Source of the DNA: Patescibacteria group bacterium
Lineage (GTDB): Bacteria > Patescibacteriota > Minisyncoccia > Moranbacterales > UBA2206
Assembly: GCA_022709735.1 (NCBI GenBank)
Contig: JAKLIG010000003.1
Coordinates: forward strand, 134,384-172,784
Reading direction: 5' to 3'
DNA length: 38,401 bases
Below, piece by piece: positions 15,283 to 20,388 of this stretch. Under the pieces are notes generated by a model. It had not been told where the DNA came from. It did no database searches and saw nothing but the letters and a program-made list of their open reading frames with translations. The translations under genes were made by a program, and so were the position numbers. Each line of letters opens with the position of its first letter. Position 1 is the first letter of the stretch.

Positions 15283-16224
15283 TTAAAGTGTTGTTATCGG
15301 CCGGCTTTGGACAATATAAAATTTATTCTTCTCATATGCCCATTCAATATCTTGCGGTTTTTTGTAATGTTTTTCAATTCTCAGGCAAATTTTAGCCAGA
15401 GTTATAATTTCTTTTTGAGGCAAAACTTGTTTTCCTTTTTCCGTTTTTGAAACACTCGCCCATTTTATCCTTTTCTTCAAATCTTTTACCAGCTTTTTTT
15501 CTTGATTGCTAATATTCGCATCCATAATTGACATTTTTTTCTTATTAAGAACATAACTGTCCGGCGTAATTGATCCTGAAACAATTGCTTCCCCGAGCCC
15601 CCAGCCAGCTTCAATAATCATTTGATTCCTGTCTTCCGTCACCGGATGCACCGAAAAACAAATTCCAGATTTTTCCGAATCTATCATTTTTTGCACCACA
15701 ACTGCCACGCTTACATGAGTTTTTAACATATCTTTTTCATGGCGATAGAAAATTGCTCGCGGAGTGAAAAGTGATGACCAGCATTTTTTGACATTTGCCA
15801 ATATATCTTTTTCTGTCGTGTTAAGATAACTTTCCAACTCTCCTGCCCAGGAAGCCACTGATGAATCTTCCGCCGTCGCACTGGATCTCACAGCCACAAA
15901 ATTCGCTCCAAGTTTTTTGAAATCCGCCATAATTTCTTTTTCCAAATCTTTCGGAATTTTAGCATCATAAATCAAATCGCGAATAATGGCCGAAGAGCGA
16001 TCTACTGAATTCACATCCTTATAATTTATTTTTTTAAGTTCTATTTCTACTTGCTGAAAGAGATCAGTTTCTTCGAGGAACCGGTCAAAGGCCGAAGCTA
16101 AAATCACAAACCCCGGCGGAACCGGAATTCCCGCCTTAGTCATCTCGCCCAGCGACGCTCCTTTCCCGCCCGCAATTCCAACATCTTTTTTAGTTAGATT
16201 TTTGAAGTTTTTGATGTGATTCAT
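15283..16224 (-). CDS. Stand-alone PEP/pyruvate-binding (ATP-grasp-like) domain of PEP synthase
   Basis: 313 residues corresponding only to the N-terminal domain of phosphoenolpyruvate synthase or PPDK. It starts at the usual point (GIAGGKGASLGEMTKAGIPVPPGF), has VRSSATAEDSSVASWAGE (about 112-129), GICFSVHPVTEDRNQ and WGLGEAIVSGSITPDSY, and ends exactly at the domain border (IEWAYEKNKFYIVQSRPITTL). The phospho-histidine and C-terminal barrel domains of PEP synthase are absent, and no partner gene is in the window. It could phosphorylate another carrier or substrate with ATP, as rifampin phosphotransferase does with its related domain, or be half of a split enzyme. It is last in the minus-strand cluster starting at 20388, 51 bp after the preceding gene. 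Confidence 0.85.
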   Translation of the reverse strand: MNHIKNFKNLTKKDVGIAGGKGASLGEMTKAGIPVPPGFVILASAFDRFLEETDLFQQVEIELKKINYKDVNSVDRSSAIIRDLIYDAKIPKDLEKEIMADFKKLGANFVAVRSSATAEDSSVASWAGELESYLNTTEKDILANVKKCWSSLFTPRAIFYRHEKDMLKTHVSVAVVVQKMIDSEKSGICFSVHPVTEDRNQMIIEAGWGLGEAIVSGSITPDSYVLNKKKMSIMDANISNQEKKLVKDLKKRIKWASVSKTEKGKQVLPQKEIITLAKICLRIEKHYKKPQDIEWAYEKNKFYIVQSRPITTL

Positions 16225-16275: not shown

Positions 16276-17691
16276 TCATGCTAAATCTTTATATAAATCT
16301 TCTTCTTTAATATTCAATTGCTTTCTCTCCTCAACTGAAGCTAGGCGATAAAAAGAAATTGGGATCATTGGGTATATAAAAAATTTAATTGGTATTTTAC
16401 TTATTTTTTCAATATATTTTTTTGTTAATGTGTGATTCATCGCTATATCCAAGCCCCATTCTTTATAAATTTTTCCATCTTTTTTTGTTCGAAAGGCCAT
16501 ATCTGCACAATTAAAATTTATAACACTCCAGTACTTGGATAATTCAAGCTCTTTTGCATAATTACTAATATTAAGCACTTTTAACCAAGCTTTTTGCATA
16601 CTTCCACTATACTCGGTTTGCCCTGGTCCGCCACAAGTTTTTGCTCCCATATAAAAAGCTACGGTGGCGAATTTTATAAAAATAGATGGGATTAGAATGC
16701 CTTCGTTTAAAGCTCTTGAGATGTCTTCTGGCTCTAATTTAATATTTCTGGCCTTTTTTTCAGGACTAAATAAAACATCGCCCCTTAAGTCTAGTCGATA
16801 TTCCTGCCCGTCCTCTTCATCGAAACACCAAAAAAAATAGGTGCCAGAATTTTTGCCATAATAATTCCAAGCCCCATAAATTCCATCGAATTCTTTCAAG
16901 ACTATTTCTCTGAATTTTTTATCAAATAAGGATTTCCAAACGATATTATCTTCGTTTTCTAAAACAAATTTTGTTAAGAATTCTATCAAAATTTCATCAT
17001 GTTCGAGAGTTATGCATCGCCTCACATCATTAATTATTCCAGGATCAAACATTTCTAGCCAAATTTTATGGTTAATTTTAATTATTTGGTCAGATAATTT
17101 TTTGCAAGTTGAGAAATCTACATTATCAATTATCAATTGCAATCTTTTGATAAATTCGATTTCGCTTTCATTAAAATCTTTTTTATTTTTATTTACCCAT
17201 TCCATTAAATTATACTTATATAGAGGATATCTGGAGACAAGTTTATTTTTTGTAGATTTAGGATATAAATTAAGATGTTTTCCGTTAATTTGCACTCCCC
17301 TTTTATTTAAAGCATCATTAAAAGGAACATTTCCGCAATTAAGCACAAAATAATCTTTTTTTTCTTTCCGATTAAAAATAGTATCAAATCTAGTAATTAA
17401 ATGAGCCCCGACAGTCGAAGGAAAATTTAAGATACTATGGTGATCGGTAGTATCTAAAATTAACCCTCCGTCAAAATTAACTTTGATATCTTCATTCTTA
17501 AATAATTTTTCTATTTTTTCTTGTATAAGTTTTTTGTATGGTTCTTGTCTTTTTAGATGTTCTGAGGCAAATTCATGTCTTGTTATATATTTTTTGCAAT
17601 AATCAATCAATGGCTCTTCGCAATTTAAAAGCCATCCCATAAAAGGATTGGCTTTTTTTATGATTTGTATGGCTTTTTCTATATCTATCAT
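16276..17691 (-). CDS. Unknown family protein, paralogue of 18931-20388
   Basis: 471 residues from the ATG at 17691 (MIDIEKAIQIIKK). The frame stays open upstream, but those 30 codons run through a tRNA-like element and have no counterpart in the paralogue. Shared with the 485-residue protein: HLKRQ near the N-terminus, a DHHxIL..P..xxHL block, GNVPxN followed by RGxxxNGKxxNLxPKSxKxK, a DFSxCKxLxDQxxKIN block, EFdGIxGAW followed by GTxFFW and a late FYMGxK. No membrane segment or signal peptide. DHH, the Cys and the acidic positions could be active-site residues, but I recognise no fold and assign no function. Next to it are a tRNA-Glu-like element (18 bp upstream) and the PEPS-domain gene. 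Confidence 0.75.
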   Translation of the reverse strand: MIDIEKAIQIIKKANPFMGWLLNCEEPLIDYCKKYITRHEFASEHLKRQEPYKKLIQEKIEKLFKNEDIKVNFDGGLILDTTDHHSILNFPSTVGAHLITRFDTIFNRKEKKDYFVLNCGNVPFNDALNKRGVQINGKHLNLYPKSTKNKLVSRYPLYKYNLMEWVNKNKKDFNESEIEFIKRLQLIIDNVDFSTCKKLSDQIIKINHKIWLEMFDPGIINDVRRCITLEHDEILIEFLTKFVLENEDNIVWKSLFDKKFREIVLKEFDGIYGAWNYYGKNSGTYFFWCFDEEDGQEYRLDLRGDVLFSPEKKARNIKLEPEDISRALNEGILIPSIFIKFATVAFYMGAKTCGGPGQTEYSGSMQKAWLKVLNISNYAKELELSKYWSVINFNCADMAFRTKKDGKIYKEWGLDIAMNHTLTKKYIEKISKIPIKFFIYPMIPISFYRLASVEERKQLNIKEEDLYKDLA

Positions 17692-17709: not shown

Positions 17710-17779
17710 TAGCCCGAGGCAGGTGTGAGCTACCGTCTCTTCGCGGAAAGCGAAGCGTCCTACTCTAGACGATCGGGCC
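17710..17779 (-). tRNA. tRNA-Glu(UUC)-like cloverleaf with atypical loops
   Basis: The 70-nt minus-strand sequence folds as a full cloverleaf: acceptor GGCCCGA / TCGGGCT (7 pairs, one G-U), D stem GTC / GAC, anticodon stem CTTCG / CGAAG, T stem GGTAG / CTGCC (one wobble), discriminator A. The anticodon in loop CTTTCCG is TTC (Glu), and the 5' half resembles ordinary tRNA-Glu (GATCGTCTAG, TAGGAC). Oddities: the D loop is 8 nt (TAGAGTAG) with a single G in place of the GG pair; the T loop is CTCACAC, so T54 and A58 are both C; position 37 is C rather than purine; bases 32 and 38 can pair. All stems are intact, which argues against random decay. CCA is not encoded, as for the other tRNAs here. 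It may be a specialised tRNA or a structured relic. Confidence 0.55.
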
Positions 17780-18930: not shown

Positions 18931-20388
18931 TTAAAATATTTTTTCTAAATTTTTTTTAAGATTTTCTTCGGTTATTGAAAAATTTTTTTTGTCTTTAATA
19001 TTTCCATATTTACTAATACCATAATCATAGGCGAATAGCAAAGGCGGAATCATATATTCCTTAAATTTGATTGAGTCTAATTTATTAAAATATTCTTCAG
19101 AAAATCCTCCTTTCAAAAAAATATCAAAAGCATGTAATTCTTTGAGTTTCCCTTGTGAATCGCGACCCTGACATATTGAAATAAGATTCATATTATCTAG
19201 CGGAATATTTTTTGCCAGTTCTGCTTCCTCGGGAAAATATTCTGCCAATATTTCAATCATTTTTATTTTCATTCTAGTTAGATATTCAAGAGAATAGCCT
19301 GCTAGTGGCTTCATGCCCATATAAAAAATTATAAGCGAGAATTTTAAAAGCATGCCGGGCAATATTTTTTTTGATTTTAATTTTCCAATAATAGCTTCTG
19401 GCGTAAATTCTAACTTAAATTCATTTTCTCCAATTAAAAAACCGCCTTTAAGTTCCAGCCTCAAATGCTCATTGTTTTCGTCTAACCCCCAAAAGAAATG
19501 CGTACCAACTTTTTTTTCTTCATCCCAGGCTCCATTAATTCCTTCGAATTCATCAATTATCAGCTCTCTAAATTCATTCTCAAAAAGCATCTTATAAACA
19601 AAACTGTCTTTTTCGTTTTCAAAAACATAAATCATATAATCAATTACGATGTCGTCATATTCAATAGAAATTAACCTGGCAGCATTCTCTCGCAATTTTT
19701 CTTCAAATAAATATGGCCAGAGATAATAATTTATCTTGGTGTATTGATCTCCTAAAGTCTTGCATGAAGAGAAATCAATGTTTTTTATTACATTATTTAT
19801 TTTCTCCAATAAAAACTGCTCTTGATTTGTAAAAGATTGCCATTGATGGCTTTCTTCTTTTAATCTTTTAACGATGTCGAATTCATATGTATGCAAATTA
19901 TAGACTATTTTATCCTTATCTGATTTCGGGAACAAATTTATTTTCTTTCCATTGAGCACGAATCCGCGACGGCGAAAAGGTTCATTTAACGGAACATTTC
20001 CAGTTGCAAAAGTCAAAATGTCTCCTTCTTTATCTTTATGAAGTAGTTTATAAAAATTAGAAACTAAATGAACCGCTAAAAGCCACGGATGGTCTAAAAT
20101 CCCATGATGATCAACAATCCCTCCAATTACACCCCAACTATCATCAATATTAATTTTTATTTCTTTTCGCTCATTAATATTAAACAAATTCTCTATTTTT
20201 TCTTTTATTTTCTGCTTAAATCTAAATTGCCTTTTTAAATGAATTTCGCTGGGTTTATAAAAATTTATTCTTTTCGAATATTCCGAAAGTGTTTCTTCGT
20301 TTTTATAAAAAGAATTAAGCGAAGGAAGATACTTCACTACTTCATTTGCAATTTCATTAATTTTAGTATCAGAATAAAATTTTTCCAT
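18931..20388 (-). CDS. Unknown family protein, paralogue of 16276-17691
   Basis: 485 residues, soluble, with no signal peptide. Main conserved blocks: IHLKRQFRFKQKIKEKIENL (about 53-72), IVDHHGILDHPWLLAVHL (near 111-128), GNVPLNEPFRRRGFVLNGKK then NLFPKSDKDK (near 149-180), IDFSSCKTLGDQYTKIN (near 215-231), EFEGINGAWDEE then GTHFFWGLDE (near 277-302) and FYMGMKP (near 355). The same blocks occur in the paralogue two genes downstream. I recognise no known family. It is first in the cluster, with a possible promoter TTGATG - 16 bp - TAAAAT at 20403-20430. Side-by-side paralogues suggest a heteromer or two successive steps on related substrates. Confidence 0.75.
   Translation of the reverse strand: MEKFYSDTKINEIANEVVKYLPSLNSFYKNEETLSEYSKRINFYKPSEIHLKRQFRFKQKIKEKIENLFNINERKEIKINIDDSWGVIGGIVDHHGILDHPWLLAVHLVSNFYKLLHKDKEGDILTFATGNVPLNEPFRRRGFVLNGKKINLFPKSDKDKIVYNLHTYEFDIVKRLKEESHQWQSFTNQEQFLLEKINNVIKNIDFSSCKTLGDQYTKINYYLWPYLFEEKLRENAARLISIEYDDIVIDYMIYVFENEKDSFVYKMLFENEFRELIIDEFEGINGAWDEEKKVGTHFFWGLDENNEHLRLELKGGFLIGENEFKLEFTPEAIIGKLKSKKILPGMLLKFSLIIFYMGMKPLAGYSLEYLTRMKIKMIEILAEYFPEEAELAKNIPLDNMNLISICQGRDSQGKLKELHAFDIFLKGGFSEEYFNKLDSIKFKEYMIPPLLFAYDYGISKYGNIKDKKNFSITEENLKKNLEKIF

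Follow-up and report, generated by a model that had tools for sequence, protein, structure and literature searches.

The locus examined here raises the question of whether a tRNA-like gene with intact stems and altered loops is a tRNA withdrawn from translation for another job, as the original prediction proposed. The gene lies in the window, the whole 38,401-nucleotide stretch of DNA that was analyzed. The window belongs to contig C9 of a genome of 0.99 Mb (15 contigs, 96.6% completeness), which has its class in common with records titled Candidatus Niyogibacteria and Candidatus Portnoybacteria. The gene, hereafter the odd tRNA, and its altered parts are the following.

17779–17710, minus strand: 70-nt tRNA-Glu-like gene, counting discriminator A73; CCA is not encoded and the next base is C (from the sequence, a leave-one-out covariance model and pairs kept in four members)
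17761–17766, minus strand: D loop, 6 nt, AGAGTA, with a single G and without G18G19
17746–17748, minus strand: anticodon UUC, within the loop CTTTCCG, with C37
17723–17729, minus strand: T loop, CTCACAC, with C54, U55, C56 and C58

Written in segments, the odd tRNA reads GGCCCGA TC GTCT AGAGTA GGAC G CTTCG CTTTCCG CGAAG AGAC GGTAG CTCACAC CTGCC TCGGGCT A. All 21 stem pairs (7+4+5+5) are standard and there are no mismatches; the three wobbles are G1-U72, U13-G22 and one T-stem pair. The claim that every stem pair is kept is borne out by this recount, which replaces the earlier figures of 20 pairs and two wobbles. The predicted loop features, namely the single D-loop G, C54, C58, C37, the anticodon UUC and the ability of C32 and G38 to pair, can all be read in the sequence. 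The surroundings of the two D-loop Gs and of the 54-58 pair in a normal elbow have been described (PMC4810234). A standard elbow, with GG in the D loop and a T54..A58 T loop, was present in all 39 of the ARAGORN-called host tRNAs that were checked, and the odd tRNA has neither feature. When the fold of the window element was compared with chance, z was −2.65 and 3 of 200 shuffles folded equally well, so that the shuffle test taken alone gives modest support. The cloverleaf in the window is confirmed.

ARAGORN did not call the odd tRNA in the window, and Rfam RF00005 (gathering threshold 29 bits) did not find it even at E ≤ 10; Rfam run permissively returned nothing but weak, unrelated matches. 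An exact-letter search among 142 relatives likewise gave only short chance matches. With a covariance model (CM) built from relatives only, the window sequence being excluded, the odd tRNA scored 83.8 bits (E 8.9e-22); with the same model, the top score among ordinary tRNAs of the window was 34.7 bits. The set comprises four members: the window element, one in Candidatus Niyogibacteria (L064), one in Candidatus Portnoybacteria (L066) and one in genome G648 (L099). The Niyogibacterial member exceeds the RF00005 gathering threshold at 50.8 bits. The G648 member, unseen in training, was found in the class sample at 72.0 bits with a CM made from the other three sequences. In candidate-phyla genomes, such genes can escape a standard tRNA finder together with Rfam.

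Each of the four members has standard pairs at 22 of 22 positions examined (21 stem pairs and the Levitt pair 15-48). Two-sided compensatory changes occur at nine pairs across the members, including the Levitt pair, which is A-U in the Portnoybacterial member and G-C in the other three. None of 500 shuffles matched this level of covariation, and sliding the partners abolished the signal. The D loops read AGAGTA, AGTGTA, AATGAA and AGCGTA, and the T loops read CTCACAC, TTCATAT, CTCAATA and CTCGTAG; the loop letters thus differ among the members, and neither the GG nor the T54-A58 pair is restored in any of them. What the odd tRNAs have lost is one of the two D-loop Gs plus the 54-58 pair. Pairing of C56 with the one invariant G of the D loop would still be possible, and the elbow may be reduced rather than absent. 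All four members retain U8, A14, U55, C56, G1-U72 and U11-A24, together with U13-G22 accompanied by A46 and by the absence of residue 47. In addition, C74 is conserved, and the CCA is encoded in L099. This pattern, drawn from four sequences in draft genomes (two or more carry titles that call them metagenome-assembled, and the G648 bin has 4% estimated contamination), is as expected for a tRNA whose body is under selection and whose elbow has changed, and it argues strongly against decay.

The original prediction had named a decayed or chimeric tRNA as its main alternative, to which a scar left by integration next to a genomic island may be added. An origin of this kind would account for an element that ARAGORN and Rfam miss and that has lost its elbow, and it would agree with the fact that the neighboring genes A and B, described below, were absent among the other members of the source genus that were searched. 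However, all pairs are kept in four divergent genomes with changes on both sides, the odd sequences group with one another and not with the tRNA of their own host, and their position before A/B or a glutamyl-tRNA synthetase (GluRS) gene is recurrent. Because the stems are kept through compensatory changes and the loops are persistently odd in the relatives, which is the outcome that the prediction had set against random decay, we consider this explanation very unlikely.

The source genome carries a canonical tRNA-Glu(UUC) gene at L026:95-171 and a tRNA-Glu(CUC) gene at L023:105-181, and the proposal that canonical tRNA-Glu genes would be found elsewhere in the genome was therefore correct. Canonical UUC and CUC genes were both found in all four genomes with the odd tRNA. 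In G131, the notion that the odd tRNA is the only tRNA-Glu(UUC) was ruled out by a tRNA-family search, which yielded a canonical gene at L206:1501-1575. The odd tRNA is not the cell's working tRNA-Glu.

Features of the D helix are major identity elements for GluRS, and its determinants include U11-A24, U13-G22:A46 and the lack of residue 47 (PMC9976931). A37 is a GluRS determinant as well, next to the anticodon U34 U35 C36. Position 37 is A in the Niyogibacterial and Portnoybacterial members and C in the window element. The anticodon is UUC in three members, and the anticodon position of L099 reads UUU. These data bear on the possibility that the odd tRNA is an ordinary translating tRNA-Glu(UUC), an unusual additional isoacceptor that travels on a mobile cassette, much as phages carry tRNAs. 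Its favorable points are the UUC of three members, the kept GluRS determinants and the existence, in phages, of tRNA-Glu genes whose D loop is likewise 6 nt long. Those phage tRNAs, however, keep the GG and a standard T loop. Furthermore, canonical UUC and CUC genes coexist with the odd tRNA in every genome, one member has UUU, the window element has C37, and the linkage is to one gene family and not to a tRNA array. We therefore regard an ordinary role in translation as improbable, although tRNAs with reduced loops can translate, for example those of mitochondria and the short-D-loop tRNAs of phages. If the L099 tRNA carried glutamate into translation, its UUU would lead to misreading of lysine codons.

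The odd tRNA is embedded in a set of genes that all run in one direction, in the order B – M19 – odd tRNA – A – PPDK_N, with B two genes upstream of A.

18931–20388, minus strand: gene B, encoding 485 aa; the linked family is defined from it, and its relatives are at 63, 50 and 45% identity
17828–18910, minus strand: Peptidase M19 (membrane dipeptidase-like; PF01244, E 6e-18), with the metal-site residues HxD, E, H, H and D present
16276–17691, minus strand: gene A, encoding 471 aa and paralogous to B (33% identical), starting 18 nt past the odd tRNA
15283–16224, minus strand: PPDK_N (PEP-synthase-like ATP-binding domain; PF01326, E 6e-102), downstream of A

An open reading frame (ORF) of 501 aa that begins at TTG 17781 is a mechanical extension of gene A through the odd tRNA. 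The closest relative of B (63%) is in the Niyogibacterial locus and another (45%) is in the Portnoybacterial locus; in both, the odd tRNA lies directly upstream of B, ending 10 nt and 14–20 nt before the start codon, respectively. The third relative (50%), in an Omnitrophota bin (L065), starts 60 nt from the contig end, too close for its upstream region to be read. In a class sample of 384 genomes, B was found in three only (G000, G131 and G626), and copies of the odd tRNA scoring at least 90 bits were found in the same three only; these genomes trained the CM, having been found through or beside B, and the other 381 took no part. In this sample, no genome was seen to have B without the odd tRNA, and only G648 has the odd tRNA without B. 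The 21 genomes with distant A/B homologues only gave a best CM score of 60.6 bits, which is in the range of ordinary tRNA-Glu. The odd tRNA is probably absent from the remaining genomes of the class sample, as judged from whole-genome scans that used a first-look filter and missed one canonical tRNA-Glu. The linkage to the A/B family, which the original prediction did not notice, is the strongest evidence for a job outside translation.

In all four members, the odd tRNA lies 10–20 nt upstream of a start codon, or 10–18 nt when the distance is taken to the start of an ORF of at least 100 codons; among ordinary tRNAs in related loci, 12 of 99 lie within 30 nt of one. The gene that follows is B in two cases, A in the window and an extra GluRS paralog in G648. 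These positions would also suit a cis-acting tRNA mimic, comparable to the Escherichia coli thrS operator. The cloverleaf would then remain part of the mRNA leader and, by binding GluRS or A/B next to the start codon, make translation sensitive to the enzyme or to charging with glutamate. In all four members the start codon that follows is on the strand of the odd tRNA, a Shine-Dalgarno sequence is hardly or not at all visible before it, one of the four downstream genes encodes a GluRS paralog, and tRNA mimics in the mRNAs of aminoacyl-tRNA synthetases, the thrS operator among them, are established and likewise place a tRNA-like fold just upstream of the start codon (PMC9976931). On the other hand, an operator could do without a complete acceptor stem of 7 bp, a discriminator, C74, the Levitt pair and the 13-22:46 triple, each of which is kept, and it leaves the encoded CCA of L099 unexplained. 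Known mimics such as thrS have no true acceptor arm, whereas the odd tRNA is a full cloverleaf with acceptor arm and discriminator, and three of the four downstream genes are not synthetases. Nor does an operator for B agree with the window, where the element precedes A instead. Overall, we think a cis-acting mimic unlikely, though it is the strongest of the competing explanations. The proposal of withdrawal from translation is partly supported; it is well motivated by the gene linkage, the loss of the elbow and the UUU of one member, and it shares the observed positions with a tRNA-mimic leader, which fits them as well.

We then consider the partner proteins. A and B had no match in Pfam, NCBIfam, PADLOC or the PDB sequences. 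An AlphaFold2 model of B, calculated with 28 sequences, was confident, with a pLDDT of 93.8 and a pTM of 0.93; Foldseek comparison of this model with the PDB and with viral models gave no significant hit (best E 1.5 and 0.69, respectively). The predicted structure of B would thus have no PDB-like fold, a statement that covers the PDB and viral models and that we do not extend to a new fold. Viral contigs were searched for B, and it was not found there. The PPDK_N protein is a stand-alone protein of 313 aa in which no further domain was found; its gene probably shares a transcription unit with A, and a homologue adjoins an A/B homologue in L068. The M19 protein of the window is 40% identical to the M19 protein adjoining B in the Portnoybacterial locus. 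M19 genes follow B in the window, in L065 and in L066, and one is near an A/B homologue in L071. Beyond B and M19, L065 goes on with three further genes: one ligase-like, one glycosyltransferase-like and one for an ABC exporter, the names of the second and third being taken from their sequences. From such neighbors, we infer that the A/B gene contexts resemble small-molecule biosynthesis. In G648, where B was not found, a third GluRS gene (L138:4777-6087) directly follows the odd tRNA and has FQLG for HIGH and KLSLR for KLSKR; the other GluRS genes of this genome look normal. The altered GluRS is a possible synthetase-derived protein that uses aminoacyl-tRNA. In G131, one clear GluRS gene is present, downstream of B.

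A dedicated Glu-tRNA that is charged by GluRS, performs poorly in translation and donates glutamate to the A/B enzymes is the likeliest reading, to which we give about even odds, its charging and donor steps being deduced from the retained determinants and the gene context. The odd tRNA would be co-transcribed in the B – M19 – tRNA – A – PPDK_N operon, as spacing and strand suggest, and tRNA-processing enzymes would release it, so that the downstream gene retains a short leader. It would fold as an L-shaped tRNA body, and GluRS would recognize the retained determinants and charge it with glutamate; the C37 of the window element, where the determinant is A37, speaks against this reading. The weakened elbow and altered T stem would then disfavor EF-Tu and the ribosome, for which the tRNA-Gly of Staphylococcus aureus offers a precedent. 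Finally, A and B might take Glu-tRNA as an aminoacyl donor to form a glutamyl amide or a peptide-like small molecule, on which M19 might in turn act. The donor role of A/B is a guess from gene context, B being without a recognizable family or fold. More tentatively, we suggest that a ribosome-excluded Glu-tRNA may serve A/B as a new class of aminoacyl-tRNA-using enzymes, with an altered GluRS as partner in one lineage, which would make it a portable module with varied partners. If a dedicated role is correct, a defined set (a 70-nt RNA, GluRS, A/B and M19) would be at hand for testing the way in which a tRNA comes to leave translation.

Retirement of a tRNA from translation is known in only a few cases, of which the best known is that of cell-wall glycine. 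The S. aureus tRNA-Gly(UCC) of the pentaglycine bridge is likewise a supernumerary isoacceptor whose D and T loops are altered and whose stems are kept, in a cell that has the standard isoacceptors too; it is described as charged by the normal synthetase and poorly recognized by EF-Tu (PMC8007984, citing Giannouli et al. 2009). The odd tRNA differs in being of Glu type, with a shorter D loop, in an operon with A/B, and in recurring across candidate phyla; no Fem-type ligase was identified beside it. The Bacillus cereus pseudo-tRNA tRNA-Other is also a tRNA-like molecule outside translation beside an accessory gene region, but its anticodon is that of Trp, its charging is poor and it seems to belong to a larger regulatory RNA, and the sections consulted describe no link to a partner family like A/B (PMC3399842). 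Use of an aminoacyl-tRNA donor outside the ribosome, as proposed for A/B, is found in the PEARLs (PMC11962472, PMC11117183). Unlike PEARLs, A and B are without a Pfam, NCBIfam or PDB match. To our knowledge, PEARL systems have no dedicated tRNA gene. A search of the literature collection at hand found no work on such a tRNA in candidate phyla.

Identity is 65–77% among the odd tRNAs and 47–68% between them and the canonical tRNA-Glu genes of their four hosts; most comparisons place the odd tRNAs nearer to each other than to the host genes. In a FastTree phylogeny of 12 sequences and 60 positions, in which the root position is tentative, they group together with local support of 0.95 for all positions and 0.985 for stems only, beside the Portnoybacterial canonical tRNA-Glu(UUC). 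A single origin with horizontal spread fits these relationships, as it does the absence of A/B elsewhere in the genus. The odd tRNA is probably a specialized third tRNA-Glu, maintained by selection and partly spread by horizontal transfer.

The A/B family occurs in 28 of 380 genomes of the phylum, and homologues are found on plasmids of Streptomyces clavuligerus, Rhizobium, Agrobacterium, Sinorhizobium and Shinella. In S. clavuligerus, the region of the B homologue (L175:11627-13098) is annotated as two hypothetical ORFs and adjoins hypE/hypF, with ATP-grasp and isochorismatase-family genes nearby, a context that suggests a putative biosynthetic cluster. If its dedicated role is correct, the odd tRNA would be an entry point to the chemistry of A/B, a family that reaches Streptomyces and Rhizobium plasmids.

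Several other tRNAs were considered and set aside. The tRNA of G615 (67.8 bits) is a tRNA-Glu(UUC) recognized by ARAGORN with no A/B gene beside it, and where distant A/B homologues have tRNA-Lys, Pro, Ser and Ile genes nearby, these were read as ordinary neighbors. Phage Glu-type tRNAs with a 6-nt D loop from a viral pattern scan have a normal T loop and are not members; two IMG/VR contigs (L159 and L168) carry tRNA-Glu genes of this form, with a 6-nt D loop and a normal T loop, in arrays of 23–25 tRNA genes. A further IMG/VR sequence (L164:296-365), scoring 64 bits, was not added to the set: its T loop is odd, but it lacks UUC at the anticodon position. It forms a cloverleaf with a 6-nt D loop, the T loop CTCAAAC and C instead of U at position 33; it was missed by ARAGORN and sits 26 nt upstream of a 523-aa ORF.
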